DNA from: Lepidurus packardi
Lineage: Eukaryota; Arthropoda; Branchiopoda; Notostraca; Triopsidae
Direction of reading: 5' to 3'
Assembly (NCBI GenBank): GCA_023053545.1
Contig: JAKZAN010000006.1
Coordinates: 9,828,351-9,892,350, forward strand
DNA: 64,000 bases
Both the position numbers and the translations under genes were made by a program. Below are positions 28,401 through 50,186 of the stretch, piece by piece; the stretch's first letter is position 1; each line of letters begins with the position of its first letter. The notes under the pieces are model-generated. The model saw nothing but the letters and a program-made list of their open reading frames with translations. It did not search any database and had not been told where the DNA came from.

Positions 28401-28417
28401 TGTGAGGCGATCTCCAT
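25412..28417 (-). CDS. PAN3: PAN2-PAN3 deadenylase subunit PAN3, 11 coding exons, 650 aa
   Basis: Exons: 28417-28187, 28123-28014, 27586-27553, 27493-27223, 27150-26875, 26807-26637, 26555-26338, 26241-26102, 26041-25844, 25778-25616, 25552-25412. An N-terminal CCCH zinc finger (C14, C23, C29, H33) is followed by a short low-complexity linker. The pseudokinase (TYKARHMRTGNHYSLKRVHG, VFVYDYHAGAETLM, DPTKILVTSQNRLKL, GVFDVL) comes next, then the coiled-coil and C-terminal knob (SVTEMLPFVGPRLLQELDAA, GRLFRLL-type NSRLFRLLGKLG, ETGDRYLLKLFRDYLLH, HTLNKLDAGSQEK, SRDEQNVLVVSY). Family knowledge: PAN3 dimerises, binds poly(A) and PABP, and recruits PAN2 to trim mRNA tails. An in-frame stop directly upstream of ATG 28417 and an acceptor at 28437-28438 fix the start and imply a noncoding first exon, which would fall at or beyond the Helentron edge at 28545. 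The 34-nt exon is unusually small. The intron 28013-27587 carries an inserted element. Confidence 0.95.
27637..28013. mobile_element. inverted-repeat (MITE-like) element in a PAN3 intron, with apparent 8-bp target duplication
   Basis: Near-terminal inverted repeats of about 65 bp, roughly 80% alike, lie at about 27651-27715 and 27935-28000 (core GCTAGCC..ccctttcttgtttacat). ATAATTAC occurs at 27637-27644 and again at 28006-28013, so an element of about 361 bp is bracketed by an 8-bp repeat, the size made by hAT-type transposases. No open frame, so non-autonomous. Degenerate TTAGG-like tracts fill 27780-27860. The outermost 6-7 bases do not pair, so the exact ends are uncertain. The right copy of the repeat contains the splice donor of PAN3 coding exon 2. 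A related sequence lies at 49290-49424. Confidence 0.6.
27784..27859. repeat. TTAGG-like degenerate tract
   Basis: Repeated TTAGG, TTAAG and TTACG units on the plus strand. TTAGG is the usual arthropod telomere unit, but this interstitial, irregular tract sits inside a MITE-like element and need not be telomeric. Confidence 0.6.
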
Positions 28418-28544
28418 TCATAAGCTGGTTCAATCTATAAGAGAAAGGAATTAAACGTCCTTTCGTAAAAGTGATAATTACCTAACAATATTTAATTAAT
28501 GAAATTACGCAGGAAAAACATAACCCATTTCTACGTTAACAAGA

Positions 28545-28577
28545 CGACAGGATGAACTGTCGAATAAGCTGTGCCAG
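28545..28577 (-). repeat. Helentron 3' end: hairpin plus inner copy of the asymmetric terminal inverted repeat
   Basis: CGACAG-GATGAA-CTGTCG at 28545-28562 is a perfect 6-bp stem with a 6-base loop. AGCTGTGCCAG at 28567-28577 is inverted relative to CTGGCACAGCT at 44898-44908, with a one-mismatch copy at 44631-44641. HLE2 elements are known to place the inverted repeat just inside a terminal 3' hairpin. Confidence 0.6.
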
Positions 28578-29318
28578 GGAGTCCGTGTGAGTTGTGGATG
28601 ACGTGGTGTTCTGTGGTTCTGGTAGATGGCTGTGTAGTTGAATGACGGTGGTCAAGCGTGTGTTGATGTGTGTTATTATATGTTAAGAAAATCGACACTG
28701 GTTTTGATCTGTTGTAAAAGTGTATAATTAGCTGTTTGGTAATTATTCTGTGTTGTTTTGTTTGGTAAGTTTTATTTGTTTCTGCGTAGTTTTGGTAATT
28801 TGTTTTTGTGGGTATGAATGTTAGTGTGTAATGAGTTTCGTTATGCTTTACTAAGGAGTGTTGTGTTTAGAGAGCTGAGAGTTAAGCGATATTTGTGTAT
28901 TTATTTGCAAATTTGAGTACGACGTCGTTGGCCTTAGGTGGTGTATCTGTTGTCGTTTTTGCCACTTGTCTGTTTAATGTAGTTTCATTGCATTATTTTG
29001 AGTATTCGTTTTTATTGCTTTAGTTTTTTAATTGCTTAGTTTTTTTGTGTGACAATTTTTTTGGCATTTCGTTTTGGAACGCGTCTTGTTGTAAGATAAG
29101 AATTGGTATATTAATAACCTTTTTTTATTGTAGACACGTTTGGTATATAGTCTTTGTTTTGCGGCTTGTGGAGCTGTTGCGGTTTTACCTGTAAGAATTG
29201 CAGTGTTATAATTAATAAACGACAGTTTAATTGGAACATTTATATTGAAATCGTCTTGGATACAGGTACATGATTACAGAAATGTCACAAAATAGTGGAG
29301 GGGATTAGTATGGGTTCT
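28578..29318 (-). other. Helentron 3' noncoding region
   Basis: T- and G-rich on the plus strand, with no convincing open frame. It probably holds the 3' UTR of the second RPA-like gene. I see no further structure. Confidence 0.45.
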
Positions 29319-30362
29319 TTAAGGGTTTTGGGTAATGTTAACTACTTCTTTTTTTTGTTCATCCACAGTGTATATGATGTCCGTTGCTGTAAGAATCTTA
29401 ATAACCAAGTCGGTCGTGTTGTGTGGCGTCAACTCCTGGTTTTCGGCTTTTCTGAAGATATTTTGCAGGAGTTCGCTGTTTATTGAAGCCTCCAGGATGT
29501 CGCATTCGTGTTGAAACCCAAGCGTGGCTTCAATGTTCGGGGGTGTGGTGGCGTTGAGCTGCATCCGTTTGCAACTTCCGCAGTGGAATAGAATTTCGTT
29601 GTTGTCCTCCCATTCTGTTTTTTTCTTACAGGCCAGGCAAGTTCGGTTAATCTGCACGTTGCAGTGAGCGACTCCGCTGAAGGTTAGTTGTCTGGGTGGT
29701 TCCATTGTTGCTGGTGGTGTGGGTACAGAAAGATTTGTCGCCGATTCTTGGATGCGAGACTGCTGCGTTAGACTTATGTTGTTATAATCCTGATTGTAGA
29801 CAACATCCGTAATGTCATACACTTGGTTCAGGACTAAGTCTATGTTTTGATTTTTCCAGCAGATTAATTTGGCTTCTGAAGTTTCGTCAGCAATGATGAC
29901 CTCTCTGTACATTTGGCCGGTTGCGGTCTTGTGGTCCTCCGTGATTTGCTGAATCTGGACGGTGATCAGGTAACGTTCGTTGGGATATTGCGTGCAGGTT
30001 TGAAGCGTTGCTCGCTGTTGTGGGCGAGAAGCGTACTGAAAGGGTGGACGCGGGATTGCTTCGGTCACTTGCGATGCCTGATTAATTTTGATGACGTCGT
30101 ATTTTGTCTTCTTTTTAGGTGTCTGGTGTTCGCTTTGGCTGGTCAGTGATGGGCGGATGGTGATGGGTATTTTTTCGGCGAAAAAACGCTTCATTCGGTT
30201 ATATGAGCCTGGGACAAAGGAAATGCATTCCTCGTATTGCGTTGGGGACGTTTGCAGAAAAAATCTGAAGTTCTGGGACTTGGTGCCAAATTTTGAAGGA
30301 CTCTGATTGTCACGGAGCACAGAAATGTCATGGATAAACCCCGTGTTTGCGTTGGAAGCCAT
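29319..30362 (-). CDS. Helentron RPA-like protein with zinc ribbon (RPA-B), 347 aa
   Basis: Begins MASNANTGFIHDISVLRDNQ, the N-terminal OB-fold signature shared with the other RPA-like frame here (TGYVHDVTTLK). A second OB-like stretch (RYLITVQIQQI, REVIIADETSEAKLICWK, VYDITDVVYNQDYN) follows. A four-cysteine ribbon (CLACKKKTEW, FHCGSCKRM) corresponds to the DBD-C zinc ribbon of replication protein A large subunit. Family knowledge: RPA-like genes ride in many Helitrons and are thought to coat single-stranded DNA during rolling-circle replication. An acceptor lies 10 bases upstream of the ATG (30373-30374), a donor near 30458 and a TATAAAAG at about 30551-30558, all minus strand, giving a plausible own promoter and 5' UTR intron. 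The open frame is uninterrupted. Confidence 0.75.
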   Translation of the reverse strand: MASNANTGFIHDISVLRDNQSPSKFGTKSQNFRFFLQTSPTQYEECISFVPGSYNRMKRFFAEKIPITIRPSLTSQSEHQTPKKKTKYDVIKINQASQVTEAIPRPPFQYASRPQQRATLQTCTQYPNERYLITVQIQQITEDHKTATGQMYREVIIADETSEAKLICWKNQNIDLVLNQVYDITDVVYNQDYNNISLTQQSRIQESATNLSVPTPPATMEPPRQLTFSGVAHCNVQINRTCLACKKKTEWEDNNEILFHCGSCKRMQLNATTPPNIEATLGFQHECDILEASINSELLQNIFRKAENQELTPHNTTDLVIKILTATDIIYTVDEQKKEVVNITQNP

Positions 30363-33194
30363 GGATTGATCTCTATAAAAGTTCGATACATTATTTTTTA
30401 AGAAAAGTAAATGTTTTTTTTTAAAGTACTTTTTTTAGAGTGAATGGTTACTTACTTTTTTCAGTGTGCCTTATAGTAGTAGGGTGCTGTTTCGAAGGTA
30501 CTGTATGCGAATTGTGACTGGACTGTTCTTGGTTGTTCCTTGTCAGGTCTTTTATACTCGGATTGGATCGTAGAGTTGAGGTCTGGAAGAATAGATTCAT
30601 CCTAAAGTCAGGTCCGGTCAAAAGTTCAGGTCAGTCATTAGGGAAAAAGATTCAGTCAATAATCAGGTCGTTCTCTCCCCCCTTTGTTAACGAAAAGGGT
30701 GAATTTGCAAAGAAAAAAGTTCCAAAGGGTACAACCAGTTAATGAGAGTCATGTAAAATTTTCATCCTTAGTTCGAGTGTCAAAGCACGCTCTGAAATTT
30801 CATTAGTTTGGTAGGATGGTCACGTTCTTTTGCGTACCATGTCTTGCACTTTCCACTATTAGCGGCCTAAAAGTGTTCTTTTAGAGTTGTTTCTTTCGTT
30901 TTGTTTTTTAAGGGCGTCATGTTGGGGGATGACGTAGTTAAGAAATGGCACTTGGGTTAAATGTCGACGATCGTTGCTTTGTTTGCAAAAATTTTGGATA
31001 CAATTTTCCTTAATCGATGCTTGGAGTTTTCCATTTTCACCGAAAAAACATAATCTTGCTTTGTAAGTGAGTAAGATATATGCTTGGTTTTACTTGGATC
31101 CATTTGCACTTTCTGCGGATGATGGTATAGGATTTTTTTCCCCAATAAAACGAATATAGAAACTTTCCCACCTGTAAAAAACCCTGCGTGAAAATAACAC
31201 AATCCAATGACGAGAAAAGACGTAAAAAGTAAAAAAAAGAAGTAAAAGGAAACGAGAAGCTGCCGTTCAAAACTCCCAATCAACTGGAACAGAAAAAAAA
31301 AATATGGCATCTCTTAACGAATATCCTATGCTATAATCAAGGTCCCCTAGTGTGGTTATATAAAAATGGCGGAAATAACAGAAAAAACAACCAAGAAAAG
31401 CGTGGATTCAAATGTAAAAGAGCAGGTGTCGCTCGATCGCATTGAAACGACAACGTGGAAGTTTGGATATCCGTTATACATATACGTTCGCAGATACGTT
31501 CGCTTTCCGTAGAGGATGAGCGGTAGTAGATGGTTTGTATCTTCTTTGTGGAATTGCGTGAGTACTTTACGACACAGAAAGTGTAGGTAGATGTTGCGCC
31601 TTTTTTTTCTATGGATAAGATTATGTTTAAATAATTGTTTTCTTGGAGAAGATAGGATTTTGATAGGATAAAAAGCCGGAGAGAGCATGCAAAAATTGGA
31701 GTTCGTTAACGGAGAGTGTGGCATGATACTCTTAACAAAAACTTAGGAAAGCGATTTGATTGGAAAGAAGTTATGTTAAGATTTTACGATGTAGCGCTAA
31801 GGGAGTCAAAGTTAGCATGCATTTTAGTTCGAACAGGATTTATGGAGAGAAATTACTTATCGGTGATAATTGACAGGATATAGTAGTCATTCTTTTGTAA
31901 GAGAGAATGACGGTCTCAGTTGTAGCTGCTCCAAGTGAGGATGTTGATAATGTTGGACGTTTGTTGATCTTGTTAAGTTGATATAAAATAGCACGTTTGG
32001 GTGTTGTAACGGTTTGTGTTAGCGATGCATGCTTGTAGAACTTGCGTAATGGGAAAGTGCGTAATTAGTCCTAGAGAGAAAGTAAACGTTGATTCTAATT
32101 AGAATTAAGATTTTCAGGGAGCTCGTAAAAATTTTTCAATAGAAAAGTTCTTAATGATTTTACCATAGTTTTTGTCGATAGTCTTCTCCCGTAGTTTATC
32201 AATGCTGGGCTGGGAGCTTTTCTTCACACTTTTTACATAAGGAATATTCCTTTCTTACAAAAGGAATAGTCTCCTGAAAATGAGTCAATTTGTAAATTTC
32301 TTCAGAAAATAGAATTAGAAAGAATAAGAAGTCATATATACTTACTTGTATTTATTGCAGTTTTCCAACTGCAGTAGGGTCCGGTTAAAAAGTCTTGAAA
32401 TTTTTAGCGAAATGCCATTGTTGGAAAATGGGTACGAGCGTATAAGTAGCCTATAATTGTTGGGAAGGCGCGAAATGTACTGAATGTAATTGCGGGGTTA
32501 TTGATTCCTGTGTTTCGAATTTGTATTGTATACTATGTCAGGAAGTGTTATGTATGGTATATACAGGGAGCATTTATTGAATGGTATTTGGGCAAACTAC
32601 GATGAAAAGCATTTCACTTGACAGATTAAATGTCAATAAGTGTAATACTGTACTGGATAGAAATATTATTATGAATTTAGATATTTTGAGAGATGTTCTC
32701 TTGTCGTGTGTTCTTATTTCGTGTTATGTGTACGTACAGATACGTCACATATTTTTGTGTGGGGACGGCGATGGAGGAGTTTCGAGTTGGGGGGGGGGGG
32801 GGGGATTGGTCCTTTTTGTACTGTTTTCTGGTGGTGGTTAGTTGGAAAAAGAGAGGGTCAGTCAGAAAGAGTTAATAAGAGAAGGTGGAAAGCGATAGTC
32901 GGTTGAGTTGGAGCTGAGTTGAGTTGTCAATGTGCTGGAGAAAGAAGTTAAGCGGCAGTATAGTTATAGCGCCGAGTTATATAGAGGAGTGATTAAGCAA
33001 CTGTTTATTTGTGGGAATGAAATACAGCTGATCGTTTATTTTGTTCTAAAACGTTTTCGTGTGCTTGCATAACATTCGTTTACATAAAATATATTTATAT
33101 TTAAACTTATTATTTTATAAATTAAATTTGTACGTCCATGTTCCATCTTCTTATATGATTGATAATGCATGTGTAAGTCCTTGGCAGTTTGAGG
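30363..33194 (-). other. Helentron spacer between the Rep/helicase and RPA-B genes
   Basis: About 2.8 kb. The minus-strand 5' leader of RPA-B occupies 30363-30560, with a candidate TATA box. Two minus-strand frames of about 120 codons (30957-31310 and 31356-31724) are lysine-, phenylalanine- and leucine-rich without a known domain and are not called. A 16-base G run lies at 32789-32804. The rest should include the 3' UTR of the Rep/helicase gene. Confidence 0.45.
32789..32804 (+). repeat. poly-G tract, 16 bases
   Basis: Uninterrupted run of 16 G on the plus strand inside the Helentron spacer. It is prone to length error in sequencing and may form quadruplexes. Confidence 0.8.
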
Positions 33195-36100
33195 TTAAGT
33201 ATCAGGTAATTGAATGTGAATAATTTTGTGATCTGAATAGTATGTTTCATACACACCAGTTTTAGGATTGTGTAAGTTAGAGTAAATATGATCCAACGTT
33301 GATGAATAGTCGGTTGTATAGGAAGTAATATGCTGTCTTAGAGTCAGGGGTTTGAGTATGTCGGCAATTTTGGCAGCGTATGTAGTGTGAGTATGCATAT
33401 TGACATTAAAATCGCCCATAAGTATAATTCTTTCAAAGGAGCTGTCAACGTCTCGTACGAGTTGCTCCAGTGCGTCGTACAACTTTTCTATATTGTGCCC
33501 ATGATGTCTATATAATACGTATACTGCTAATCGTAATTCCTTAACATGATAGGTAGCTACTTCAAGGTATTTGTTGGAACACAGACGAGTAAAAATTCCA
33601 GTAAGTTTGGAATAAATAACGATTCCATAAGGTGAATTACCCTGGTGAGTTGTAGCGAAATCCATACGGTGTAACTGGAAGTCTGGTAAGTTATAGTCGT
33701 TGTCTCTATCAGTTGTGCATAAACGAGTTTCACACATGGCAAATATAGCGGTCATTGCGATGAAAGGATCACATAGAATGTCGGGAATGTGTTTTCGTAA
33801 TGAGACGACGTTTAGGAACGCCACGATTTTTGTTTCAGATAGAACAACAGATCTTACGTCCTCCAGTGTGAGTTTTTGAGGATTGCTTCGGAGACGATCC
33901 ACTTCATTTTTTATGTCGGAAGACACTTTAATACCGGATTCATTAAGATCTTCAATGTAAAGGCCATCAAGTCGTTTGGCTCTGCTGATCGCTACGTAAT
34001 GCATGTTGCATGTTGCGTGAGCCAAGTTAACAACCACCTGCTCCATCGTTTGTCCTTGAGCACGATGAATTGTTTTTGAGCTATTAGGTCTTAACGGGTA
34101 CTGGAGTCGCTCGAATTCTGTTCTAAGGAACGTGTATCTACAAGTTACAGGGAATACAGGTGTCCATTGTTTTGAAACTGTGCAGTCTTGTTGGTATAAT
34201 TGTAGATATTTGTCACGGCAATGCTTACCCACAGAACTGTCTTTAAATTCTACCCAAATGGGAGCCTGTTTCGAACAATGTAATATAGGACACGTGTGCT
34301 TAAAATTCGCGTCAACATTGTCTTTACCTAGAGGTGGTAAATTTTGTGGTAATCTTCTAATTGTACATTCGGATCCATTCGCCATACCATCACTAACGTC
34401 AGAGTTAATATTATACTCAAAAGGCAAATCAATTGCTATGAATAAATAACGAATACTGTTACTACTAGTAGTTTTATTAGGTAACTTCTTTAATAAAGAA
34501 TTTGTATCGATACCCTTACAGCCTTTTATGGGCATATCATTACTAACTATTAAAATTTTATCATTTTGCGCATTTTCCCATTCTTTTTGGTTGTAGCAGT
34601 CAACGTCGTTATTTCGGTAACTAATCCGTTGTATATGTGGAGGGGGCTTCGGAGAAATTCGGCTACGCAATAAGGAAGTATCTTCCTTTGTATGTTTTCC
34701 TTCACGTAGACGGTTCAGTAGCTCGGCGAACTTTAAGTCTTCTTTTTGTCGCATAATTTGTTGTAGTTCATAAATTTTAAAGTTGTCTATCCACAGATGT
34801 TGGGCTAAGCAACGTGCCCCTGTATTTGAATATTTGAAAATAGGCTGGGCCTTTGTAGGTGGTAGCTGAAAGAGATCACCGACACATAATATTGATTTGC
34901 CTCCAAATATTCGGGAACAGCCAAATATTTCTTTCAAACGGAAATCAATATAATAAAGCATATTTATTCCAACCATGGAAACTTCGTCTATTATAAAAAG
35001 CTGTACGTCACGGAATAATATGGCTAATTGGGAGCGAACTTGTGAATTTAGGGACAAAAAAGAATTGTTAGCATCAAACATTTTGCCAGCTGGAATATGA
35101 AACGTGCTGTGTATTGTTGATCCGCCTACACTGAATGCTGCTTTGCCTGTGTAAGCTACTATTACAACTTTCTTTGTATCAGGATTCGAGTTAGGAGCCT
35201 TATTATAGTACCGTGTTAAGCACGCGTTAATAGCTCGAACAACCACACTTTTTCCAGTCCCCGCTCCACCGCTTAGGTATCTGCAATAGCTTCCAGTTTT
35301 TGTTTTATGCATAAATAACAGATCTAAAACAAATAATCGTTGTTCTACATTAAGACTACGCATTAAACTGTAATACTCTTCGTCTTGTAATCCGTAATGT
35401 TCTATTACCCTTACTGCCTTCCCTAGTCCCGCATCATCAACGCTGCAAGTCGGTAAGTCTCTTCCTATATCTGGAATTGGCATACAGTTATACTCTGGAT
35501 CGTACATTTGATTAGGGGCATTTTCTTGCTCTTGCGTTACTTCTTCGTCTTCCGAGTCTATATGGCTGAAATAGTTACGATCAAAAAACTCGTGGAGAGG
35601 TTTCTCTAAAATATCGTCAACAGTAGAACTGTAAGGTTCATAGATGTCGCGCTCTTTTAGTACACGACGGAACACGTTATTCTGAAAATACTTCGCTTCG
35701 TAGGTTTTTTGGTCTTTCAGTTCTTTGTGGTCTCGCCATGGCCAATATAACATCAGTTTCGTGTGGTAATATTTCTCGGGGTTACCCTCACGACGATAAT
35801 TCATAAAGCGTAGGATGCGTTGTTTCGTTCTAACTGTGTATTGCGAGTTTTTGTCAGATTTCTCGCAATTTTTTGAATAGTCTTCGAATTCATTATCACT
35901 TGTCATATCATCTGAAAATTCAGCCTGTTCTAGACAATAACCGTCATTACCGATCACAGGCGAATAATTTTTTACATATGCATGTGTGTATTTAGTTAAA
36001 TATTCTGCCAAGCTAATATCACTGAGGTGTTCAGGTCTCCTAGAATATCTGTCGAAGAAGTTTTCACTAATTACGTTTTCATTATCATCGTTCATCTTCT

Positions 36101-39100
36101 CTATAACTGCGAAAGGTTTTGTGAGTACGACTCTTTCCTCAGGTTCGCACGTATTTACAAAGATGACAGATCTGCTAAACTTTCGCAGCGGTAATTGTAG
36201 AATTAAGAAAACAGCTTCTTGTACACCTACTTCTGATGAGTTCAGAAATTTATTGCCCAACATCCTGAATTTTTCTCTGATACTAAAATTGCCGTCGCGT
36301 ACCTCTTGCACTACGTTACGAAGAGTCTCACTCATTCCTCTCTGAGACTTGGTCATGTAGCTCGCAATATAGGAGGCAGCAGCGTAAGCATCGTCAACGT
36401 ACTGTATATCCATATTCGCATTCCAAAACAGGAGAAGTAATGGATTAAAAGCATTTATCATACATTCATTGGGGGCACGCTTCAGAAATAGTGTTTTCTT
36501 TGGAATACGTGATCGTAAAGCACCAACATAGGTTTCTAAATTAAATCCGCATTTGCTTAAAAATTCGGAGAAAGTGGTTAAGTTTTCACTGGGTAGTTTC
36601 ATGATTTCTTCTACTTTTTTCCATGCAACTCTGTATTGCTGTAACTTAACTTTCGGCTCTGCAGAATCCAATGGCTTTAAAATCATTGTATATGGCAGTG
36701 GAGGTTTCGGAAATCCAAAGCGACATTTGTTATTTTTACCTTTTCCTTTACATGTAAAGGAATGCTTGTGTTTCTGTACTTCTTTTGCTATAGATGCTGA
36801 AGCGCCAGATAATTCGCACGTGACGTAGCAATCAACAAAACGGATTAAGCTTTCCTCGTACGACAATTCGTCTTGAAAATCAGTGGGGCACGGCTGATTA
36901 TGACACCACACGAACATATGTATGTGAGGAGACCCGCGCTGTTGAAATTCCACGCGAATTGCATAATCTTTAAGTTTACCGACTGGTTCCGTAGAGTTTC
37001 GTAAAAATTGTAATAGTATATCTACACGGTAGTTAAAATACCTAGCACAGGTAACACTGTCTTTCAATAAACGACACTTATCCAACCAAGTTAACGAGAG
37101 AAGCTCTTCCTTCGTATAAGAACGACCATCAACTGTTCTTCCTAATATGCGTAAGAGTTCTAACCATCTAGTTTCAGCGGCTGAAAAGCTGAGAAAAAAA
37201 GCCGGTGGGCCAACTTGACGTATCATGGCAAATAAATCATGACACATACGCTGGTAATAGGGAGGTGATCCACGGACGCATCTTAAGAAATTAAAACCTC
37301 CATCGAATTGTAGTGAGTGCAAAATTTCTGGATTTTTAAACATTTTAGCATTAAATGTGGTACCCGGTTTTCTATCCTTTCCTTTGACAATACGTGTTGC
37401 GAAACGCATAGTGTCCGCTATCTTTTTAATCTGTATCTTCTTGAGTTTGAAGAAAATATTAACCTCGTCTTGAGCAACACGACGGTCAACATTCTGTAAC
37501 TCGGCCTTGCAAAGAGAACTATAGGAGACCGGTCGACAACGATAACGGCGCCCTTGTAATGCAATATTGCAATCAATATTATCCAACGATGCTAGTCTAG
37601 AGTCTTTCTTAACATACACGGGCCTGGCATATCCGCAGAAAATATGCGGAAACCCCAGCTCTTCACAGTATTTATCAGTAAGCACACCGAATGGTCTTTT
37701 GTTTTCTCCGGGTGCTATGGAATGAATTACATCGTCACCCTCACCGTGAAGAAAGTTTTCATTTAGTAATACAGTATCCATGTTTACTCTAGCAATGTCT
37801 TCAGAATCCTCTTGGTCACTACTACCGTCACACAATTCGTTTTGTGATAACGTAGTGTTCTTATCATCTTCATGTTGCACTGATCTACCGTCAATTACGC
37901 ATTCTTCCGCACTTATGTGCGGCAATTCTTCTTCCGCTACAAACTGCCAGTTTTCTGCCAAAGAAATACCATGTTCAATAAATAATGGGCGTCTTACCAA
38001 CAACTCTGCTGCGTAACGAACTAGATTTGGACGTACAGTTTCCACAAATTCAGGGCGAGTATATTCTAGTTTTCTTTTTAGAGCAACTTTTATTGTCTCG
38101 AAGTCACGAAACGTGCGAGGTAATTCGGTTATAGTTTCGTCTATGTCATGAGGTATATTAATTACATTTCCCTTCAGTTTCGATTGCCCACCCTGGCGTT
38201 GTGGCTGCAATTTTAAGAACATGAGACGGGGAGACACTAGCCTTCTTTCCATATCATTTAAAACTGTAAGCTCGTCCGGTCTTTCCGGGAAAGAAACTTG
38301 GTTTAATACAGATACTGGAGGTACTTCGCCTTTTTTTATATACTTATAACAAGTTCTGCAAACATATTGTTTATATACCGAAGTGAAACATTTTTCAAAT
38401 AAATTTCTTGCACGATGACCTTCCTTGCCAGTTAACGGTTCTACGTTTTTCCGCAACATTTCTACTGTACATAAAGTGCGTCTAAAAAATAGCTGACAGC
38501 AACAACCACAAACAAAATCGGCTCCCTCAGCAAGTAAATTTTTCAGTTTTCGCATGACTTTATCTACGGATTCAGTTTTAGTCTCTGTTGTCGTGCAAGT
38601 TTCTGTCGCGCGACTGTCTATTGAAACCGTATCGAAACATTTTAGTGTATTGTGGTAGTCAAGATCCTTCCGAGTACGGTCAATGGTTCTTTGATTTCTA
38701 TGACAAAAGACCTCAGGGTGCCCTTCATGCGAACAACTACATATGATTTCATTAGAAAAGCAACTGAGGCATCCCCTTTTAGCGTCAACAATACAATCCA
38801 GTGCTAGGAAACAACAGTTTTCGATTCTGCAGGGAGTCACAGCTAAAACTAGTGAATATATCGTAAATTCATTCGAATCGTTCCATCCTATGAAACATTC
38901 ATGTATTATACTCGGAAATTCAGCTACTGTACTGTTCCTAATTACGGCACACCTATCGTACGACGTGCAATAAGATCCACAACTACGCGTGCTATTGTGA
39001 CTACAAAATATGCTTAAAACGTTATCTTCTGTTCTGCAGACGGCAATGCAATAACTCCTATATTGTATAACGAAATAAGTACCCTCGCGCAACGAAAGAC

Positions 39101-39512
39101 TGAAATAGGTACTAAATTGTGAAGGCGAAACAGTTGTGCACAATACCTTTGAGAAATACGTGTAAGACAATCCGATGTTAGGAATGCAAAATTTACTAGG
39201 AAAGTTGTCAACAGATATCCGAACATTGTTATTAGCAAATAAGTTGTATACAATTATGCCTACTTTTCGGATATTTCCAATCATGTCTATATCCGCAAGT
39301 TCATTGTTATGTAAGCCTCTAGCTGTTGCGTAACGCAAGAGCAGGAAAACAATGCTGAGGGGCACAGACTGGTCACATTTTCTAGGAGAATAGAAGTTCT
39401 CCGCGTAATCAACACCTTTGCATAAAACCAAATGTCTGGTAAAATTGTCTCCGCTTTCAAACTGTACGTTACAATCGTTGCACTTTAAATGTGTGACACC
39501 GAAAGATAACAA
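33195..39512 (-). CDS. Helentron Rep/helicase/endonuclease protein, at least 2105 aa in one open frame
   Basis: Domains in order: a C2H2-like finger (CNDCNVQF..HLVLC, residues 10-31); a protease-fold-like region with FCSHNS; a Cys-rich block; the HUH Rep nuclease (SPHIHMFVW near 860, paired tyrosines in ASYIASYMTK near 1050); a Pif1-family helicase (SGGAGTGKS near 1415, AYTGKAAF, IIDEVSM near 1510, VGDLFQLPP, TIHRAQGQTM, VAISRAK); and an exonuclease-endonuclease-phosphatase domain (CETRL, GDFNVN near 2033, LDHIYSN, YSDHK near 2092). Nickase, helicase and endonuclease residues that I can check are present. The frame stays open upstream to about 39587 with no ATG before residue 77 or so, so translation probably starts in an upstream exon. 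That open stretch overlaps the RPA-A stop by a few bases. Family knowledge: Rep-helicase drives rolling-circle transposition; the endonuclease is the Helentron hallmark. Confidence 0.9.
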   Translation of the reverse strand: MLSFGVTHLKCNDCNVQFESGDNFTRHLVLCKGVDYAENFYSPRKCDQSVPLSIVFLLLRYATARGLHNNELADIDMIGNIRKVGIIVYNLFANNNVRISVDNFPSKFCIPNIGLSYTYFSKVLCTTVSPSQFSTYFSLSLREGTYFVIQYRSYCIAVCRTEDNVLSIFCSHNSTRSCGSYCTSYDRCAVIRNSTVAEFPSIIHECFIGWNDSNEFTIYSLVLAVTPCRIENCCFLALDCIVDAKRGCLSCFSNEIICSCSHEGHPEVFCHRNQRTIDRTRKDLDYHNTLKCFDTVSIDSRATETCTTTETKTESVDKVMRKLKNLLAEGADFVCGCCCQLFFRRTLCTVEMLRKNVEPLTGKEGHRARNLFEKCFTSVYKQYVCRTCYKYIKKGEVPPVSVLNQVSFPERPDELTVLNDMERRLVSPRLMFLKLQPQRQGGQSKLKGNVINIPHDIDETITELPRTFRDFETIKVALKRKLEYTRPEFVETVRPNLVRYAAELLVRRPLFIEHGISLAENWQFVAEEELPHISAEECVIDGRSVQHEDDKNTTLSQNELCDGSSDQEDSEDIARVNMDTVLLNENFLHGEGDDVIHSIAPGENKRPFGVLTDKYCEELGFPHIFCGYARPVYVKKDSRLASLDNIDCNIALQGRRYRCRPVSYSSLCKAELQNVDRRVAQDEVNIFFKLKKIQIKKIADTMRFATRIVKGKDRKPGTTFNAKMFKNPEILHSLQFDGGFNFLRCVRGSPPYYQRMCHDLFAMIRQVGPPAFFLSFSAAETRWLELLRILGRTVDGRSYTKEELLSLTWLDKCRLLKDSVTCARYFNYRVDILLQFLRNSTEPVGKLKDYAIRVEFQQRGSPHIHMFVWCHNQPCPTDFQDELSYEESLIRFVDCYVTCELSGASASIAKEVQKHKHSFTCKGKGKNNKCRFGFPKPPLPYTMILKPLDSAEPKVKLQQYRVAWKKVEEIMKLPSENLTTFSEFLSKCGFNLETYVGALRSRIPKKTLFLKRAPNECMINAFNPLLLLFWNANMDIQYVDDAYAAASYIASYMTKSQRGMSETLRNVVQEVRDGNFSIREKFRMLGNKFLNSSEVGVQEAVFLILQLPLRKFSRSVIFVNTCEPEERVVLTKPFAVIEKMNDDNENVISENFFDRYSRRPEHLSDISLAEYLTKYTHAYVKNYSPVIGNDGYCLEQAEFSDDMTSDNEFEDYSKNCEKSDKNSQYTVRTKQRILRFMNYRREGNPEKYYHTKLMLYWPWRDHKELKDQKTYEAKYFQNNVFRRVLKERDIYEPYSSTVDDILEKPLHEFFDRNYFSHIDSEDEEVTQEQENAPNQMYDPEYNCMPIPDIGRDLPTCSVDDAGLGKAVRVIEHYGLQDEEYYSLMRSLNVEQRLFVLDLLFMHKTKTGSYCRYLSGGAGTGKSVVVRAINACLTRYYNKAPNSNPDTKKVVIVAYTGKAAFSVGGSTIHSTFHIPAGKMFDANNSFLSLNSQVRSQLAILFRDVQLFIIDEVSMVGINMLYYIDFRLKEIFGCSRIFGGKSILCVGDLFQLPPTKAQPIFKYSNTGARCLAQHLWIDNFKIYELQQIMRQKEDLKFAELLNRLREGKHTKEDTSLLRSRISPKPPPHIQRISYRNNDVDCYNQKEWENAQNDKILIVSNDMPIKGCKGIDTNSLLKKLPNKTTSSNSIRYLFIAIDLPFEYNINSDVSDGMANGSECTIRRLPQNLPPLGKDNVDANFKHTCPILHCSKQAPIWVEFKDSSVGKHCRDKYLQLYQQDCTVSKQWTPVFPVTCRYTFLRTEFERLQYPLRPNSSKTIHRAQGQTMEQVVVNLAHATCNMHYVAISRAKRLDGLYIEDLNESGIKVSSDIKNEVDRLRSNPQKLTLEDVRSVVLSETKIVAFLNVVSLRKHIPDILCDPFIAMTAIFAMCETRLCTTDRDNDYNLPDFQLHRMDFATTHQGNSPYGIVIYSKLTGIFTRLCSNKYLEVATYHVKELRLAVYVLYRHHGHNIEKLYDALEQLVRDVDSSFERIILMGDFNVNMHTHTTYAAKIADILKPLTLRQHITSYTTDYSSTLDHIYSNLHNPKTGVYETYYSDHKIIHIQLPDT

Positions 39513-39579
39513 GCCGGCGCGGAAACACCGGAAAGGGTTGGCGTCGGGAGGATTAGGTTGGATTAGGTTGGTGTAGATA

Positions 39580-40554
39580 TTATAGAGGAGTTATTACTGT
39601 TTTTCTGTATCGGATTTTAATTGGATTGTATTTCATATCATTGAACTGTTTAGAAAGACTGAAGTATTTTGAAATTGTGATAACAGTTTGGACAGTGAGA
39701 GTTGCAGGATAGAAAATGTTGTTTTGGAGCCTATTGCGGGATTCCGAAGCGTTTGTGGATATGTGAGTTGACTTGTTTGAAATAAGAAGTTGAAATAGTT
39801 GGGGCTGGGACTCATGGGAAAGATGAACGTGTAGGATTGCGTCTCTAATATATGAAAGAGAACCGTAGAGATGTTTGGGACTTTCGTGGAGATTTTCCAT
39901 TGGTCGAATTTTGCGACTAAAGATTCTTGTTGTTGTTCCGTTGAAGAGTGGATACACGTCGCTGTACGTTATGCTGGTGGCTTCTTCCTTAAAATCGCAG
40001 CCCTCCCTTGTGGCGAAGTGAGAATATGTCTCATTGTAGTATACTTTGGACAAAGTGAATGTTTTCCCTGCGGTAAGTTTATCAATATCGTTCTCCCACA
40101 AGGCGACGCAGGACATCCCACTGTCATCTGCTACCTCTAGGAATCGTCTTCGTTTGTGTTGCTTGCCGATGCGTTCGACGCCCTCCATGGACGCGACGTG
40201 AACCCGTACAGAGTACGTACCCCTAGGATCCGATACCACTTCCTTCAGATTCTTGAAGGCAAGAAAAGATGTCGTATATTGAAAAGGAAGATCCTTCACG
40301 GTTGTAATTTGTTGGGCCCGCCTGATGAGGATAGTACGCGAATTCTCTTCCATGGTTCCGTCTAGCTTGATGGGTGTCTTTTCCACTTTGCATTTTTCAA
40401 TGAGACTTAAGGATCCCGGAGTAAAACAAACGACGTGTGCGAAACCTAGGGAATCGGTCTGTAGCGTAAAGGAAAAGTATTGTTGCGTGTTGGGTTTGTT
40501 CCATTTGAGAGTTGTAACATCGTGAACGTAGCCAGTTAAACCATTTGACGACAC
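39580..40554 (-). CDS. Helentron RPA-like protein (RPA-A), up to 324 aa, no zinc ribbon
   Basis: The N-terminal OB-fold signature (NGLTGYVHDVTTLKWNKP) parallels RPA-B. A second OB-like block follows (TYSVRVHVASM, RFLEVADDSGMSCVALWEND, FTLSKVYYNETYS). After about residue 215 the sequence no longer looks like RPA and lacks the four-cysteine ribbon, so the true C-terminus may be reached by splicing or may have decayed. The frame start is GTG: an acceptor at 40555-40556 joins it to an upstream exon, and a matching donor lies at about 40637-40643 (ACAA/GTAAGTATACC). A TATA-like stretch near 40750 suggests its own minus-strand promoter. The upstream region is the left arm of a long foldback. The stop at 39580-39582 overlaps the open stretch that leads into the Rep/helicase frame. 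Confidence 0.6.
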   Translation of the reverse strand: MSSNGLTGYVHDVTTLKWNKPNTQQYFSFTLQTDSLGFAHVVCFTPGSLSLIEKCKVEKTPIKLDGTMEENSRTILIRRAQQITTVKDLPFQYTTSFLAFKNLKEVVSDPRGTYSVRVHVASMEGVERIGKQHKRRRFLEVADDSGMSCVALWENDIDKLTAGKTFTLSKVYYNETYSHFATREGCDFKEEATSITYSDVYPLFNGTTTRIFSRKIRPMENLHESPKHLYGSLSYIRDAILHVHLSHESQPQLFQLLISNKSTHISTNASESRNRLQNNIFYPATLTVQTVITISKYFSLSKQFNDMKYNPIKIRYRKTVITPL

Positions 40555-40602
40555 TGTAATGAAAATAAAGAGTAAAAAGAAGAATTATGAACTAGGGAAG
40601 TC

Positions 40603-41597
40603 TAAAGAGAAGTACATATATAAGAACTTGAAGGTATACTTACTTGTAAGAAATCGTAAAGCTGGCACGGAAGAGTTGGAATAGGTTGTAGGTCAGTAGT
40701 GTAGACGAGTGATGTTTGCACTTTGGTAGAAATGGAACTTCGAGAACGATGTATATAGTGAAGTGAAAGGTTACTCAAAGATACCACAACGTTACGATAG
40801 CGAAGGCCAAGTTGTATTCAAAGAATTCCATTTATCTAAGCCGAATGCTGAATTCCATAGTTTAAAAATGTGGTGACCTGAACTGTACTACAATAACGTA
40901 AACCCGTTACAGGTTGACCTTCGCTAATGCTGAATATTATGGAAGTATTTGTGAAGGGCAACTCGTAAGAAGATTACGTACAATGTTTTCTAAGTATGAC
41001 ATTCACGATTTGGCTTACATAGATGTAATGCCTTGTATATTGAACATCAAGGAAGAAAATATTGTGATCTTAAGTGTGGAATTACACAATCTTCTTACAA
41101 TTTACAGTTAAGATCACAATATTTTCTTCTTTGATGTTGAATATACATGGAATGACATGTATGTAAGCAGACTGGTAAATAGGATACTTAAAAAACATTG
41201 TTTACATAATCTTCTTACGAGTTGCCCTTCGTAAATACTTCGATAATATTCAGCATTAGCGAAGGGCAACCTGTAACGAGATTACGTAATTCAGCAATGG
41301 TTACCAATGGTTATGGTTAAGGTCACCATATTTTTAAGTATGAAATGCACCATTCGGCTCAGGGAAATGTAATTACTTGAATACGACTTGGCCTTCCCTA
41401 TCCTAACGTTGTGGTATGTTTGCGTAAGCTTTCACTTCAATATATATATATCGTTCTGGAAGTCCAAAATCTACGAATGTGCAGACATCAGTCGTCAACA
41501 CTACGAACCTACAGCCTATTCCAACTCTACCCTGCCAGCTTTACGATTTCGTACAAGTAATTATACCTTCAGGTTCTTATATATGTACTTCTCTTTA
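40603..41597. repeat. long inverted repeat (foldback) inside the Helentron, arms of about 0.47-0.49 kb
   Basis: Left arm 40603-41073 and right arm 41108-41597 are reverse complements, with a 34-base spacer. The inner 30 or so bases pair almost perfectly (ATCAAGGAAGAAAATATTGT against ACAATATTTTCTTCTTTGAT), as do 40908-40985 against 41197-41275 and the outer 20 bases. Middle parts pair with mismatches and small gaps. The left arm contains the putative RPA-A promoter and first splice donor. The right arm has a corresponding TATA-like run (41440-41450) and donor (ACAA/GTAATTATACC) pointing the opposite way. Confidence 0.85.
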
Positions 41598-41879
41598 TAC
41601 TTGTATAGTTAATAATTCTTCTGTGTATGCTCTTCTGTGTATGCTTTATGTTCATTACAGTGTCGTCAAATATTTGAACTGGCTACGTTGACTACTTTTC
41701 CTTTACGCTACAGACCGACTCCCTAACTTTCGCACACGTCGTTTCTTTTACTCCGAGATCCTTAAGTCTCATTAAAAAATGCAAGTTGGAAAAGACAGTC
41801 TGAAGTTACACGGAACCAGACCCGTCACAGCTATAAGGCATAGGCAATAATCCGAGAGCGTCGAGCTAGAACTTGTTCG

Positions 41880-42330
41880 ATGTAGGAAAAGATGTTGCAT
41901 GGATGTAAGATGTTAATATTGGATGGATTGTAATCTTGTATGAATTGTAATATTGGATGAATGTGAATGTTGCATTTATGTTAATGTTGCATGGTTGTTG
42001 AATATTAATCTTGGATGTTCGATATACTTGGATGTAGTGATTAGACGGCCTGCTGAAGGCAAAGCAAGAAACCCCAATGGGATATTGGATTTAGGAATTA
42101 ACCCCTCTTTGCCCAGGTACAGCGTACGAAGTTTGTTCCCTACTTGAAAAGCACATGAACTGTCTAGAACGACCAAAGCTTGTTTGCATAGGACACTATT
42201 TGAACAGGGACACAGGAATGTGAAGTCCCATTTGAAATGCACGGGGATTTTTATTTGCACAGGGACATCAGGAATGTCATTTGAAATGCATAGAAGCTGT
42301 CTTAAACGACCAAGGCACGCTCGCTTAAGG
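41880..42330. repeat. degenerate tandem repeats upstream of the protease-like ORF end
   Basis: 41890-42020 holds loose repeats of ATGTTGCATGGATG and ATTGTAATATTGGATG type. 42150-42330 holds two imperfect copies of a block of about 128 bp (GAACTGTCTAGAACGACCAA against GAAGCTGTCTTAAACGACCA; GGGACACAGGAATG and CATTTGAAATGCA twice). No coding signal. Confidence 0.6.
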
Positions 42331-44016
42331 TTGGCTTGCCCTAAGGGCAAAACGCCAACCCAAAAACCGACAATTACGTACATGTTTTCGAAATACTCGT
42401 TCTCGAACAAAGACTACACCGCAACCTTGGCACAATAAATTTTTAGTCTGGCTACCAGAGGAAGAATTACAAGTACTTTCAATATTGTTTACCATTAAAT
42501 TCGTAGTTCTCGGGAGCTTAGATTGACCAACACTAAATTCTAGATAACCCTCCTGTCTTGTCTGCTCGCCTTTAGTATTATTCTTGGTAGTTCGGTTATT
42601 CGAACTTTTGATCACCTCTTGTACAGACGGACTAGAGAAAAGAACGGGACACACACACAAATGTCTGCGTAAATTAAATGAAGAAAATAACGCCTGGCTG
42701 CAGTGTTCACATGTAAACTCTTGCACATTACTGATCACGGGCATTTTGCTGTCAACTATTCCTTTATTGCAATTACGTCTTTGCAAATGTCTGTTAAAGT
42801 TGTAAACAGAAGAAAAATGCTGATGACATGAAACACAGTCAGTCCTTTTACTAGAATTACCAGCTTTACATAATGCTAAATGTCTGCTCAAACCACGGCG
42901 CGAAAGAAAAGTTCGTTGGCACGTTTCGCAAACAAACTGGTCATGTTCACCTTTTTTCTCAATGACAGGTTTGTGGCGTCCAAATTCTACATGTCCTTTT
43001 TCTCCTGAAAATGAATGATCAAATGCAGATATGTTTGAATCACCTTTTGAATCGTCAACGATCAGAGCAAACGGCTGTGGTAACGTTTCTGTGAGATCCT
43101 TGGCCAAATTAATGCAGGGAGAAACACCGTTTCTATCTTTCGAACAATCTTCCATTACTTCAAGATACTTTAATGAAACTTCAGAGTTATTTTTTTTAGC
43201 ATGTTTTATTGTTAAACTCTCATCAACTTCGTATTTCCGTTTTCTCAGAATATTCAAATTATTCTTGGTATCAAATTTCGATGTCGAAACATCTACTAAT
43301 TGTGGGTTAATATTAATAGCATTCAGATCAGTCCAATTACCCGATGAGACACGTACATGATTACATGCAACCCGACTGCACTTATCTACAGTTGTCAACG
43401 TATCATCCGGTCGTGCACCCCGAATTTCATGACAACAAATAGGAACAATATCATACTGTGGATTACCACTGAAACCATACATCCTCCGTAAATACTCAAG
43501 CAGTTCATCAAAAGTAAACTCTAACAGGACGGCAGTACCGCTTGTGCAACGCTGACCAAACTCATCACGCGCATGCGAGTCAAAAACAAAATATCTTCCA
43601 CTACGCTCCATGATACTAGTACAAAATGAGCAACTAATAAAAAGCACTCCTACACAGTGTTCCGCAAGCTTCACTGCATCTTCCAAAGACCAATGCCAAT
43701 AACGTGTTGTACATGGCCATATAAACCCAAAAGCATCTTCACCATGCACAAAGGTCTTTAATACACCTAAATCTCCACAACCAACAAATCGAGGCAATTC
43801 TGAAAAGCTAAAGAATGCATGAGCGTGCTTATACGTACGATAAATCTCGTCTCCAATTGACATTATCTGGTGCATGTCATGCTCAATCCAATTGGCAGGG
43901 AAAACAAAATAACTCCATGCAATAGAAACAAAAGCCATGGGTGTGCATTGTACACCACGACTTTCACTCGTACCAACCGAATCTTGTGAATATCGAGCCT
44001 TGCAGACGAGCCTCAT
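42325..44016 (-). CDS. Helentron cysteine-protease-like and C2H2 zinc-finger protein, 563 aa
   Basis: The N-terminal third resembles the OTU/C76-type cysteine protease domain found in many Helentrons: a candidate nucleophile in RGVQCTPMAF (Cys24) and a His box FDSHARD near residue 150, followed by GTAVLLEF and YLRRMYGF. A lysine-rich linker leads to four C2H2-like fingers ending in Cys: FVCETCQRTF..HLALC, CVSCHQHF..HLQRRNC, FTCEHCSQAL..HLCVC and LLCQGCGVVF..HVRNC. The Rep/helicase frame begins with the same kind of finger. A good donor (AACAT/GTACGTAA) inside the last finger suggests the two frames may be spliced into one protein across the foldback and RPA-A gene. The ATG at 44016 is preceded by a duplicated leader. 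Protease substrate unknown. Confidence 0.72.
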   Translation of the reverse strand: MRLVCKARYSQDSVGTSESRGVQCTPMAFVSIAWSYFVFPANWIEHDMHQIMSIGDEIYRTYKHAHAFFSFSELPRFVGCGDLGVLKTFVHGEDAFGFIWPCTTRYWHWSLEDAVKLAEHCVGVLFISCSFCTSIMERSGRYFVFDSHARDEFGQRCTSGTAVLLEFTFDELLEYLRRMYGFSGNPQYDIVPICCHEIRGARPDDTLTTVDKCSRVACNHVRVSSGNWTDLNAININPQLVDVSTSKFDTKNNLNILRKRKYEVDESLTIKHAKKNNSEVSLKYLEVMEDCSKDRNGVSPCINLAKDLTETLPQPFALIVDDSKGDSNISAFDHSFSGEKGHVEFGRHKPVIEKKGEHDQFVCETCQRTFLSRRGLSRHLALCKAGNSSKRTDCVSCHQHFSSVYNFNRHLQRRNCNKGIVDSKMPVISNVQEFTCEHCSQALFSSFNLRRHLCVCPVLFSSPSVQEVIKSSNNRTTKNNTKGEQTRQEGYLEFSVGQSKLPRTTNLMVNNIESTCNSSSGSQTKNLLCQGCGVVFVRERVFRKHVRNCRFLGWRFALRASQP

Positions 44017-44043
44017 ATTTAAATGTTAGAGTTACCAATGAAA

Positions 44044-44619
44044 CGTGCAACTAATAGCAAAATGTAACCAGAAATACAAATAACTATACCTTCCAAACGT
44101 GCAACTAGACGTAGGCTCTGAAAAGAAAACGACGAAACTGAAAATACAAACAGCAACAGCTAGAAAAACCTAAGTAAACTACGTTATGAATGCTCTACAC
44201 AAAATATCAAAAAACACGTACTTGCAATCCAACGATGTATGTATGCAATATTATAATAATAGTCGCTTCCTTCCTACAATTCCAAGTATTGCAATTCGGA
44301 CATGAAATAGTACCGTAAACGTAACAATGAAATTATATCGTTTCGTGCAACTAATAGCAAAATTTAACAAGAAATACAAATAACTATACCTTCAAAACGT
44401 GCAACTAGACGTAGGCTCTGAAAAGAAAACGACGAAACTGAAAATACAAACAGCAACATTAAGTAAACTACGTTATGAATGCTCTACACAAAATATCAAG
44501 AAACACGTACTTACAATCCAACGATGTATGTATGCAATATTATAATAGTCGCTTCCTTCCTACAATTCCAATTATTGCAATTCGCACATGAAATACCGTA
44601 AATGTAACAATTTAAAAAA
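44044..44619 (-). repeat. tandem duplication of the Helentron 5' leader, two units of about 0.3 kb
   Basis: 44044-44343 and 44344-44619 align along their whole length with few substitutions and several short gaps (both start CGTGCAACTAATAGCAAAAT). Each unit contains the same potential minus-strand splice donor (GGTATAGTTATTTG), so the leader of the protease-like ORF has a duplicated 5' exon-intron unit. Confidence 0.85.
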
Positions 44620-44646
44620 CCAGTCATAGACTGCCACAGCTAACAA
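44620..44646 (-). repeat. Helentron 5' end candidate (inner terminal motif)
   Basis: A 27-base motif beginning CCAGTCATAGACTG and ending CACAGCTAACAA directly abuts the duplicated leader. It is nearly identical to 44887-44913 and inverted relative to 28567-28577, as expected of the outer copy of the asymmetric terminal repeat. Confidence 0.55.
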
Positions 44647-44878
44647 CGTATACCCAACGAATCTTGATCACCACGTAGACGAGATAAACTAGCGAGTGTT
44701 GTGGGCCAGTTTTCTTCTGACAGATTTCGCCGAGCTACTTCTCTTGCCCGGCGGTAAAATTCGCTTATCTCCCTCCCCCAGGTACCACCCCAAAATTCTA
44801 TAGCCCCTTATGGCGAGAACAGAGCTAGGCTCACCATCCCACCCTCCCAAGCACGGACTAAAGTCGGTACGATACTAT

Positions 44879-44913
44879 AAGCTGTCCCAGTCATAGACTG
44901 GCACAGCTAACAA
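44879..44913 (-). repeat. second copy of the Helentron terminal motif, forming a palindrome
   Basis: 44879-44910 is a palindrome with 13-base arms (one mismatch) around a 3-base centre. 44887-44913 repeats the 27-base motif of 44620-44646 with one difference. The 240 bp between them are noncoding and GC-richer. This may be the true 5' end or the remains of a non-autonomous relative next to the element. Confidence 0.5.
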
Positions 44914-49289: not shown

Positions 49290-49424
49290 GGGTTGGCTAT
49301 CCCGACCCTTGCTTGTTTACATTAAAATCAGTAACCGCGCGAAGCTAATTCATTCATGCTTGGGGAGGGGCCTAGCTGGATCCGCAGCAAACCATGCCGT
49401 ATTTTACTTCAGGCCATTTTGATT
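49290..49424 (+). repeat. diverged copy of the MITE-like repeat in the PAN3 intron
   Basis: Similar over about 135 bp to 27650-27783 (shared GTTTACATTAAAA, GGATCCGCAGCAAACC-type and TTACTTCAGG blocks), estimated near 70% identity by eye. Its right inverted end is not clear, so it is partial or decayed. Confidence 0.6.
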
Positions 49425-50110: not shown

Positions 50111-50186
50111 TGTCTGTCGGCCCACAGAGTAATTCAATCGGCGTACAGTTCTTTGACGATAGAATTACTCTGTGGGCTGACAGATA
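50111..50186. repeat. hairpin with 25-base arms
   Basis: Left arm 50111-50135 (TGTCTGTCGGCCCACAGAGT and five more bases) is the reverse complement of 50162-50186 with a mismatch or two; spacer 26 bases. It lies 75 bases before the small C2H2 frame. Confidence 0.75.

Follow-up and report, generated by a model that had tools for sequence, protein, structure and literature searches.

A full-length, probably young Helentron with a VTD deubiquitinase gene in the genome of Lepidurus packardi

Our analysis of a 64-kb window of the genome of the notostracan Lepidurus packardi (64,000 nucleotides; contig JAKZAN010000006.1, forward-strand positions 9,828,351 to 9,892,350; all positions below are those of the window) leads us to classify the element at 28538-44913 on the minus strand as a full-length, recently inserted (young) Helentron of the branch carrying a herpesvirus-tegument-like deubiquitinase domain (VTD), a reading to which we assign a probability of about 0.8. 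Helentrons are a known kind of element, and the present one is a real, well-preserved member of that kind with some uncommon parts. An earlier note, made from the letters of this DNA alone, had proposed a Helentron with four open frames at 28545-44646. Both the encoded domains and the two termini support this identity, and the element is located where it was said to be, but its 3' end lies near 28538, since 28545 is merely the edge of a hairpin, and its 5' end is more likely at 44913 than at 44646.

Directly observed are the domains, the motifs, the two termini and four frames free of stop codons. The frames, which comprise 563, 324, 2105 and 347 codons in the open-reading-frame listing, all lie on one strand, as had been claimed, namely the minus strand. 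They are not expected by chance, since 30 dinucleotide shuffles of 28539-44913 yielded stop-free runs of 186 codons at most (median 136). In the order in which the element is read, its features are as follows.

28538..44913, minus strand: Helentron, full extent, 16.4 kb with the outer 5' end; subterminal inverted repeats and hairpins with the coding block between them
28538-44646, minus strand: alternative extent, using the inner copy of the 5' terminus
44880..44913, minus strand: outer 5' terminus, TTGTT plus palindromic subterminal inverted repeat (subTIR); folds into a hairpin of 12 bp that has a single mismatch, -12.6 kcal/mol under DNA parameters
44647..44913, minus strand: segment between the 5' termini, including the outer one; 267 bp, 50.6% GC
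44620..44646, minus strand: inner copy of the 5' terminus, sharing 26/27 bases with the outer; hairpin partly lost, -3.5 kcal/mol
44044..44611, minus strand: tandem pair of ~285-300 bp each, 91% identical, preceding the first gene
42325..44016, minus strand: VTD deubiquitinase and C2H2 zinc-finger protein (VTD-ZF), 563 aa, ATG start; PDB 8add at E 1.1e-8, zf-C2H2 above cut-off
40353..41818, both arms: imperfect palindrome, 1.47 kb; its mirror arm repeats, in decayed form, the RPA-a upstream region together with the 5' intron and initial codons
40554..40643, minus strand: predicted RPA-a intron, 90 nt, GTAAGT...CAG; donor 5.1 bits, acceptor 6.9 bits
39580..40553, minus strand: RPA-a, 324-codon frame (40554-39580), paralog of RPA-b (E 5e-18)
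33195..39512, minus strand: Rep-helicase-endonuclease frame, 2105 codons; zinc finger, candidate dead VTD, DUF6570, HUH Rep, PIF1-type helicase, AP-type endonuclease
38700..39452, minus strand: candidate degenerate VTD in the Rep N-terminus (alignment and low-confidence model)
30455-30373, minus strand: predicted intron in the RPA-b 5' untranslated region; donor 4.4 bits, acceptor only 0.9 bits
29319..30362, minus strand: RPA-b, 347 aa, ATG start; OB fold and two CxxC pairs; TATA box at 30556
28567..28577, minus strand: 3' subterminal inverted repeat CTGGCACAGCT, complementary to the outer 5' repeat over all 11 bp
28545..28562, minus strand: 3' terminal hairpin, 6-bp stem, followed by the 7 nt TCTTGTT

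In the 2105-codon frame, Pfam recognizes in succession, and always above the curated cut-offs, DUF6570 (2.6e-12), Helitron_like_N (2.8e-22), PIF1 (PF05970; 8.8e-24) and Exo_endo_phos (8.5e-6; 26.1 bits against a cut-off of 24.5, covering residues 1975-2121 when the frame is counted from stop to stop as 2131 residues). PIF1 structures in the PDB are matched with E values down to 1.4e-24, and PHROGs returns a Dda-like helicase (5.9e-53). The HUH, paired-tyrosine, Walker A, DEVSM, IHRAQG, GDFN and SDH motifs named in the earlier note were all located: (i) in the N-terminal half, the HUH motif RGSPHIH (residue 859) and the paired tyrosines (YxxxY) of YIASYMTK (1048); (ii) in the helicase, Walker A (GGAGTGKS, 1415), DEVSM (1509), GDLFQLPP (1545), IHRAQG (1815) and YVAISRAK (1839); and (iii) in the endonuclease, within residues 1928-2093, ETRL, GDFN (2033), LDHI and SDHK (2093). 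The allocation of these motifs to catalytic steps is one that we presume. Rep motif 2, VEFQQRGSPHIH, carries a Ser between Gly and Pro, and this Ser has been described as diagnostic of Helentrons (Thomas, Vadnagara and Pritham 2014, PMC4067079).

What had been called a protease-like and zinc-finger gene can now be described more precisely. In the 563-aa protein, a phmmer search matches residues 15-198 to PDB entry 8add, and this entry represents VTD2 of the zebrafish Helentron DrT1 (Erven et al. 2022, PMC9741609, a source cited here and below from an excerpt). Since Cys24, Asp146 and His148 (Asp146-Ser-His148, within FDSH) align with Cys322, Asp451 and His453 of DrT1, the protein is, as judged from this alignment, a VTD deubiquitinase with an intact triad; C2H2 fingers follow C-terminally. 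In DrT1 VTD2, each of the alanine mutants of these three residues abolished cleavage of ubiquitin, according to the excerpt (PMC9741609). OTU protease, the usual published name, is not supported for the domain: the solved structure that is matched is a VTD, and Pfam reports no OTU at E values up to 1.

The evidence that the two remaining genes are RPA-like, as had also been proposed, differs between them. For RPA-b, it is a structural model that supports an RPA-like protein: the model is confident only at residues ~116-208, corresponding to the OB fold (mean pLDDT of the whole model 42.8), and yields 35 Foldseek matches at E <=0.001, the best being a single-stranded-DNA-binding protein (SSB; 9.9e-6), with RPA entries below 1e-3. 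Archaeal and human SSB and RPA are found among these matches, as are HIN-200 OB folds. The RPA large subunit is characterized by an OB fold and a C-terminal zinc ribbon; of the two proteins, only RPA-b has four Cys arranged as two CxxC pairs. RPA-a is supported as RPA-like through its paralogy with RPA-b over the first ~200 residues, the alignment score being reached by 0/500 shuffles. For both proteins, the RPA family is absent from the Pfam matches and RPA from the PDB phmmer matches, and the NCBIfam model for single-stranded-DNA-binding protein falls far under its cut-off (E 0.081 for RPA-b, 0.011 for RPA-a). The C-terminal tail of RPA-a stays open for ~129 codons with a weak coding signal; in 2000 dinucleotide shuffles, such openness arose with a probability of 0.0045 when the frame was fixed and of 0.015 when every frame was allowed, figures that apply to a stretch of that length and composition rather than to the RPA-a frame as such. 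Both genes have a short intron predicted at or just before the start codon. The RPA-a frame opens with GTG in the genomic sequence, and splicing of the predicted 90-nt intron would form a start ATG at the junction.

A score of codon usage trained on the Rep codons from about residue 300 onward, and hence circular for that part, supports the frame expected for the Rep N-terminus and, across most of its length, for the 563-codon gene; it is about zero over 39165-38940, within the candidate second VTD, and weak over both RPA genes.

The two arms of the 1.47-kb palindrome are 77% identical over the whole length (BLAST), and 591 of 702 ungapped positions are alike (84%), with 88 gap columns. We rejected an assembly artefact as its source, since the arms differ at 16% of the aligned positions. 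The gene-side arm holds the upstream region, intron and first codons of RPA-a; in the mirror arm the donor GTAAGT has decayed to GTAATT and a block of codons is lost. Most likely, the palindrome arose by a head-to-head duplication of the 5' part of RPA-a, and it might possibly act as a hairpin RNA or as a divergent promoter.

At the termini, the element displays the subTIRs and the 3' hairpin (28562-28545) that characterize Helentrons, as judged from this one copy; within a Helentron family the repeats share at least 11 identical bp. Read in the sense of the element, the 3' end consists of CTGGCACAGCT-TATT-hairpin-TCTTGTT and finishes near 28538, and the 27-bp 5' end sequence, TTGTTAGCTGTG(C/G)CAGTCTATGACTGG, is present twice, at 44913 and at 44646. 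With the 3' repeat, the outer 5' copy pairs at 11/11 bases and the inner copy at 10/11. Exact CTGGCACAGCT occurs twice in the 64 kb, once per end and inverted; when up to one mismatch is allowed, 6 sites are found against 0.45 expected, a number reached in 0/100 shuffles, with 4 of the 6 located at the termini and 2 elsewhere (4121 and 23705). A looser 15-base pattern with up to three mismatches proves little by itself (8 sites against 3.96 expected), since 8/100 shuffles do as well. TT is found at both element ends. Helentrons typically insert into TT without duplicating the target. Animal Helentrons target T-rich sites (PMC4067079). The 267-bp segment between the 5' termini looks acquired, since its GC content of 50.6% compares with 33-42% in 8 other measured stretches.

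The insertion appears to be young, since there are 0 stops in the 3339 codons of the four frames. Counting stops alone, the neutral divergence since insertion is below ~0.6-0.7% (95%), and with an assumed 0.1 indels per substitution the bound becomes ~0.2%, provided that this copy has been under no selection. With so low a bound, the tandem repeat (91%) and the palindrome (84%) should be older than the insertion itself; if so, they would be expected in sister copies.

What we infer about catalytic steps, expression and present mobility is best put as a scheme drawn from knowledge of the family. The HUH Rep would nick the 5' terminus through its paired tyrosines, the PIF1-type helicase would peel one strand away, the RPA-like proteins would coat that strand, and the 3' hairpin would halt the process; the fused AP-type endonuclease would open a T-rich target, and the VTD protein would strip ubiquitin from the transposase or from a host factor. 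The element is possibly still mobile. Autonomy is plausible but unproven, since Rep lacks an ATG upstream of its zinc finger.

Several observations weigh against the classification as a full-length young Helentron: (i) the 5' end is duplicated; (ii) in the Rep frame, which is open from 39590 and whose 2105-codon version begins with TTG, no ATG occurs before residue 77, i.e., none ahead of the zinc finger; (iii) the only splice donor above 4 bits in 42700-39400 is that of RPA-a itself, and the acceptor just upstream of the zinc finger in Rep reaches no more than -3.2 bits, so that an upstream Rep exon is unsupported, with generic splice weights untrained on the host; (iv) Exo_endo_phos_2, the endonuclease model named for Helentrons (PMC4067079), reaches 24.1 bits (3.5e-5) and thus stays under its cut-off of 27.4; (v) of the second diagnostic, F/Y w/l/y/k R, only the Arg is present if these residues directly precede motif 2, the sequence ahead of which reads DYAIR-VEFQQRG; (vi) RPA-a lacks the CxxC pairs of RPA-b, and its tail is not locally alignable; and (vii) no relative was found with Rep, VTD-ZF and RPA-b as queries in viral and prokaryotic collections. 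A Rep made by splicing VTD-ZF or RPA-a onto the frame was likewise considered and rejected, as no supported donor/acceptor pair exists (donors in 42700-39400, acceptors in 41000-39380).

Some of these points would also fit a recent but defective copy, in which Rep cannot start at full length, the 5' terminus has suffered damage or duplication, and movement would therefore require help in trans. We regard this as a serious possibility, albeit one on the lesser side of even odds. The late first ATG of Rep, the weak splice signals upstream of it and the degraded hairpin of the inner 5' terminus all speak for such a copy; yet the outer 5' terminus remains intact, with full pairing to the 3' subTIR, Rep may use a non-ATG start or residue 77, and the Rep-like codon score extends to ~39500, upstream of residue 77. 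This explanation, like the composite origin discussed next, concerns functional state or history and is compatible with the identification as a young Helentron.

A composite origin would imply that a cassette of RPA-a and palindrome (~42.3-39.6 kb) entered and split an older gene that encoded VTD, zinc fingers, VTD, Rep, helicase and endonuclease as a single protein, an arrangement known from a zebrafish Helentron. The present succession of VTD, zinc fingers, RPA-a, zinc finger, candidate VTD and Rep indeed resembles the two-VTD element DrT1 as described in the excerpt (PMC9741609), RPA-a is a paralog of RPA-b, and the frames of RPA-a and Rep overlap at 39590-39580. However, neither an insertion scar nor an empty version was found, although neither could be looked for, the 563-aa gene possesses a plausible AATAAA of its own 70 nt past its stop, and the second VTD is weakly supported; we consider such an origin possible but less likely than not. 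As for that second VTD, ~230 residues following the N-terminal zinc finger of Rep can be aligned to VTD, where Ser stands at the position of the catalytic Cys and Asp-x-His is replaced by Cys-Ser-His. By sequence, the local score of 32.0 does not exceed the shuffle mean (32.9; 275/500 shuffles are as good), and phmmer against the PDB with the Rep N-terminus finds no VTD. A model of the region (pLDDT 41.5) has 8adc as its best PDB match (E 0.011, probability 0.97; none at <=0.001), and among the 50 matches listed VTDs appear as 8adc (rank 1), 8adb (0.90), 8add (0.60) and 2j7q (0.38), most others being bacterial sliding clamps (0.08-0.18); the alignment from which the model was built held a true VTD as its second row, a possible bias. 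Hence, a further VTD without catalytic activity may be present at the Rep N-terminus; we treat it as a weak lead. Finally, a canonical Helitron or Helitron2 would share the Rep and PIF1-like helicase, the helicase part matching Helraiser in the PDB (E 8.9e-12), but is very improbable given the C-terminal endonuclease, the Ser in motif 2 and ends (5' TTGTTAGC..., 3' ...CTTGTT) that show neither 5' TC nor 3' CTRR.

The young Helentron proposed here shares with Helentron-Mo and animal Helentrons (i) a single, intron-free frame for Rep, PIF1-like helicase and endonuclease with N-terminal zinc-finger-like motifs, (ii) a separate RPA frame, and (iii) palindromic subTIRs and a 3' hairpin (PMC4067079). 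In contrast to these, it contains an additional VTD-zinc-finger gene, the palindrome and two nested 5' termini; compared with the mite Helentron, it has two RPA-like genes where one is described, and a frame of 2105 codons versus a corrected length of 1881 aa (PMC4067079). Proto-Helentron-Pi of Phytophthora (~14 kb) is likewise a large multi-gene element with a Rep that groups with Helentrons, but it lacks the endonuclease, has Helitron-like ends (5' TT, 3' CTAG) and encodes a SET-domain gene (PMC4067079). With DrT1 our element shares a VTD having Cys and Asp-x-His, two VTDs per element if the candidate holds, and, as the excerpt states for VTD-bearing Helitrons, a C-terminal AP-type endonuclease (PMC9741609). 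Both VTDs of DrT1, of which VTD2 comprises residues 300-520, reacted with a ubiquitin probe in the excerpted account (PMC9741609), whereas here the intact VTD and the C2H2 fingers share a frame of their own, and the Rep candidate lacks two of the three catalytic residues. Separate genes, which the earlier note held to be unusual, could be so for the deubiquitinase at most: a separate RPA frame is known from the mite Helentron, and the legend to Figure 5 of the same study shows OTU-protease and RPA boxes among the proteins of Helentron-type elements (PMC4067079). The earlier note's statement that few Helentrons with all parts open are documented is doubtful as well, as the VTDs of presumed autonomous Helitrons mostly keep their catalytic residues, with several pseudogenized sequences as exceptions; that passage of Erven et al. 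covers the VTD domain and not every part of the element (PMC9741609).

The Rep query gave no pattern match among viral contigs, a 200-aa Rep stretch matched no phage, and of the 3 and 5 pattern stretches obtained with VTD-ZF and RPA-b, respectively, tblastn confirmed 0/3 and 0/5. A degenerate motif-2 pattern occurred in 0 viral contigs and 1 genome contig, the latter rejected as a relative since the match is due to chance, with stop codons in the motif-reading frame. The missing relatives say little, because the collections scanned were viral and prokaryotic.

A strong strand asymmetry, with a GC skew of +0.24 to +0.28 per 2 kb on the plus strand, extends over 28001-34000 and spans the 3' third of the element, including a 2.8-kb stretch without assigned genes. 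A captured fragment of ribosomal protein L23 at 30957-31313 is conceivable but unsupported (Pfam E 0.017, sub-cut-off, in one of five small frames searched; the PDB gives no ribosomal protein for it).

Some 120 bp separate the 3' end of the Helentron from a downstream ATG at 28417 on the same strand, which comes after an in-frame stop and begins a frame containing a CCCH finger; the next frames downstream match PAN3 (PDB 4bwp, 2.8e-27; Pan3_PK, 1.1e-9). The CCCH exon and the PAN3 frames would form one gene with 28417 as its likely start, and the Helentron probably sits in the promoter or in an intron of the 5' untranslated region of PAN3. An acceptor-like TTTCTCTTATAG is seen at ~28435, between the element and the likely PAN3 ATG (28172-28538 region). 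Upstream, two same-strand frames match Sulfotransfer_3 (1.5e-15 and 6.7e-16); this gene, presumably TPST, would extend to 47206 provided that it includes the last frame. Close to the Helentron there is also a short inverted-repeat element (27651-27998; arms 27653-27719 and 27931-27998, 84% alike) with a relative at 49294-49414 (74% over 130 bp). It contains a degenerate TTAGG-like tandem tract (27787-27859; 15 units of 5 bp, 72%), which we take to resemble the arthropod telomere repeat. Small imperfect palindromes at 60686-60820, 50113-50184 and 16285-16349 (79-81% self-complementary by BLAST) are perhaps foldback miniature elements.

It is tempting to speculate, though we think it unlikely, that in a Helentron lineage the deubiquitinase was transferred out of the Rep polyprotein into a stand-alone zinc-finger protein able to act in trans, perhaps binding DNA via its C2H2 fingers, and that the VTD left behind in Rep lost catalysis and became a scaffold. 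In the excerpt, Erven et al. report inactive VTD genes in insects that lie outside transposons and are related to Helitron VTDs (PMC9741609). If the speculation were true, a free VTD gene would constitute a ready source for these genes.

The wider interest of the element lies in its state of preservation. To our knowledge, no autonomous Helentron has been shown to move in the laboratory. A young copy with four open frames, two defined ends and an apparently intact VTD triad is a candidate test system, with which one may ask whether RPA and deubiquitination aid rolling-circle transposition.

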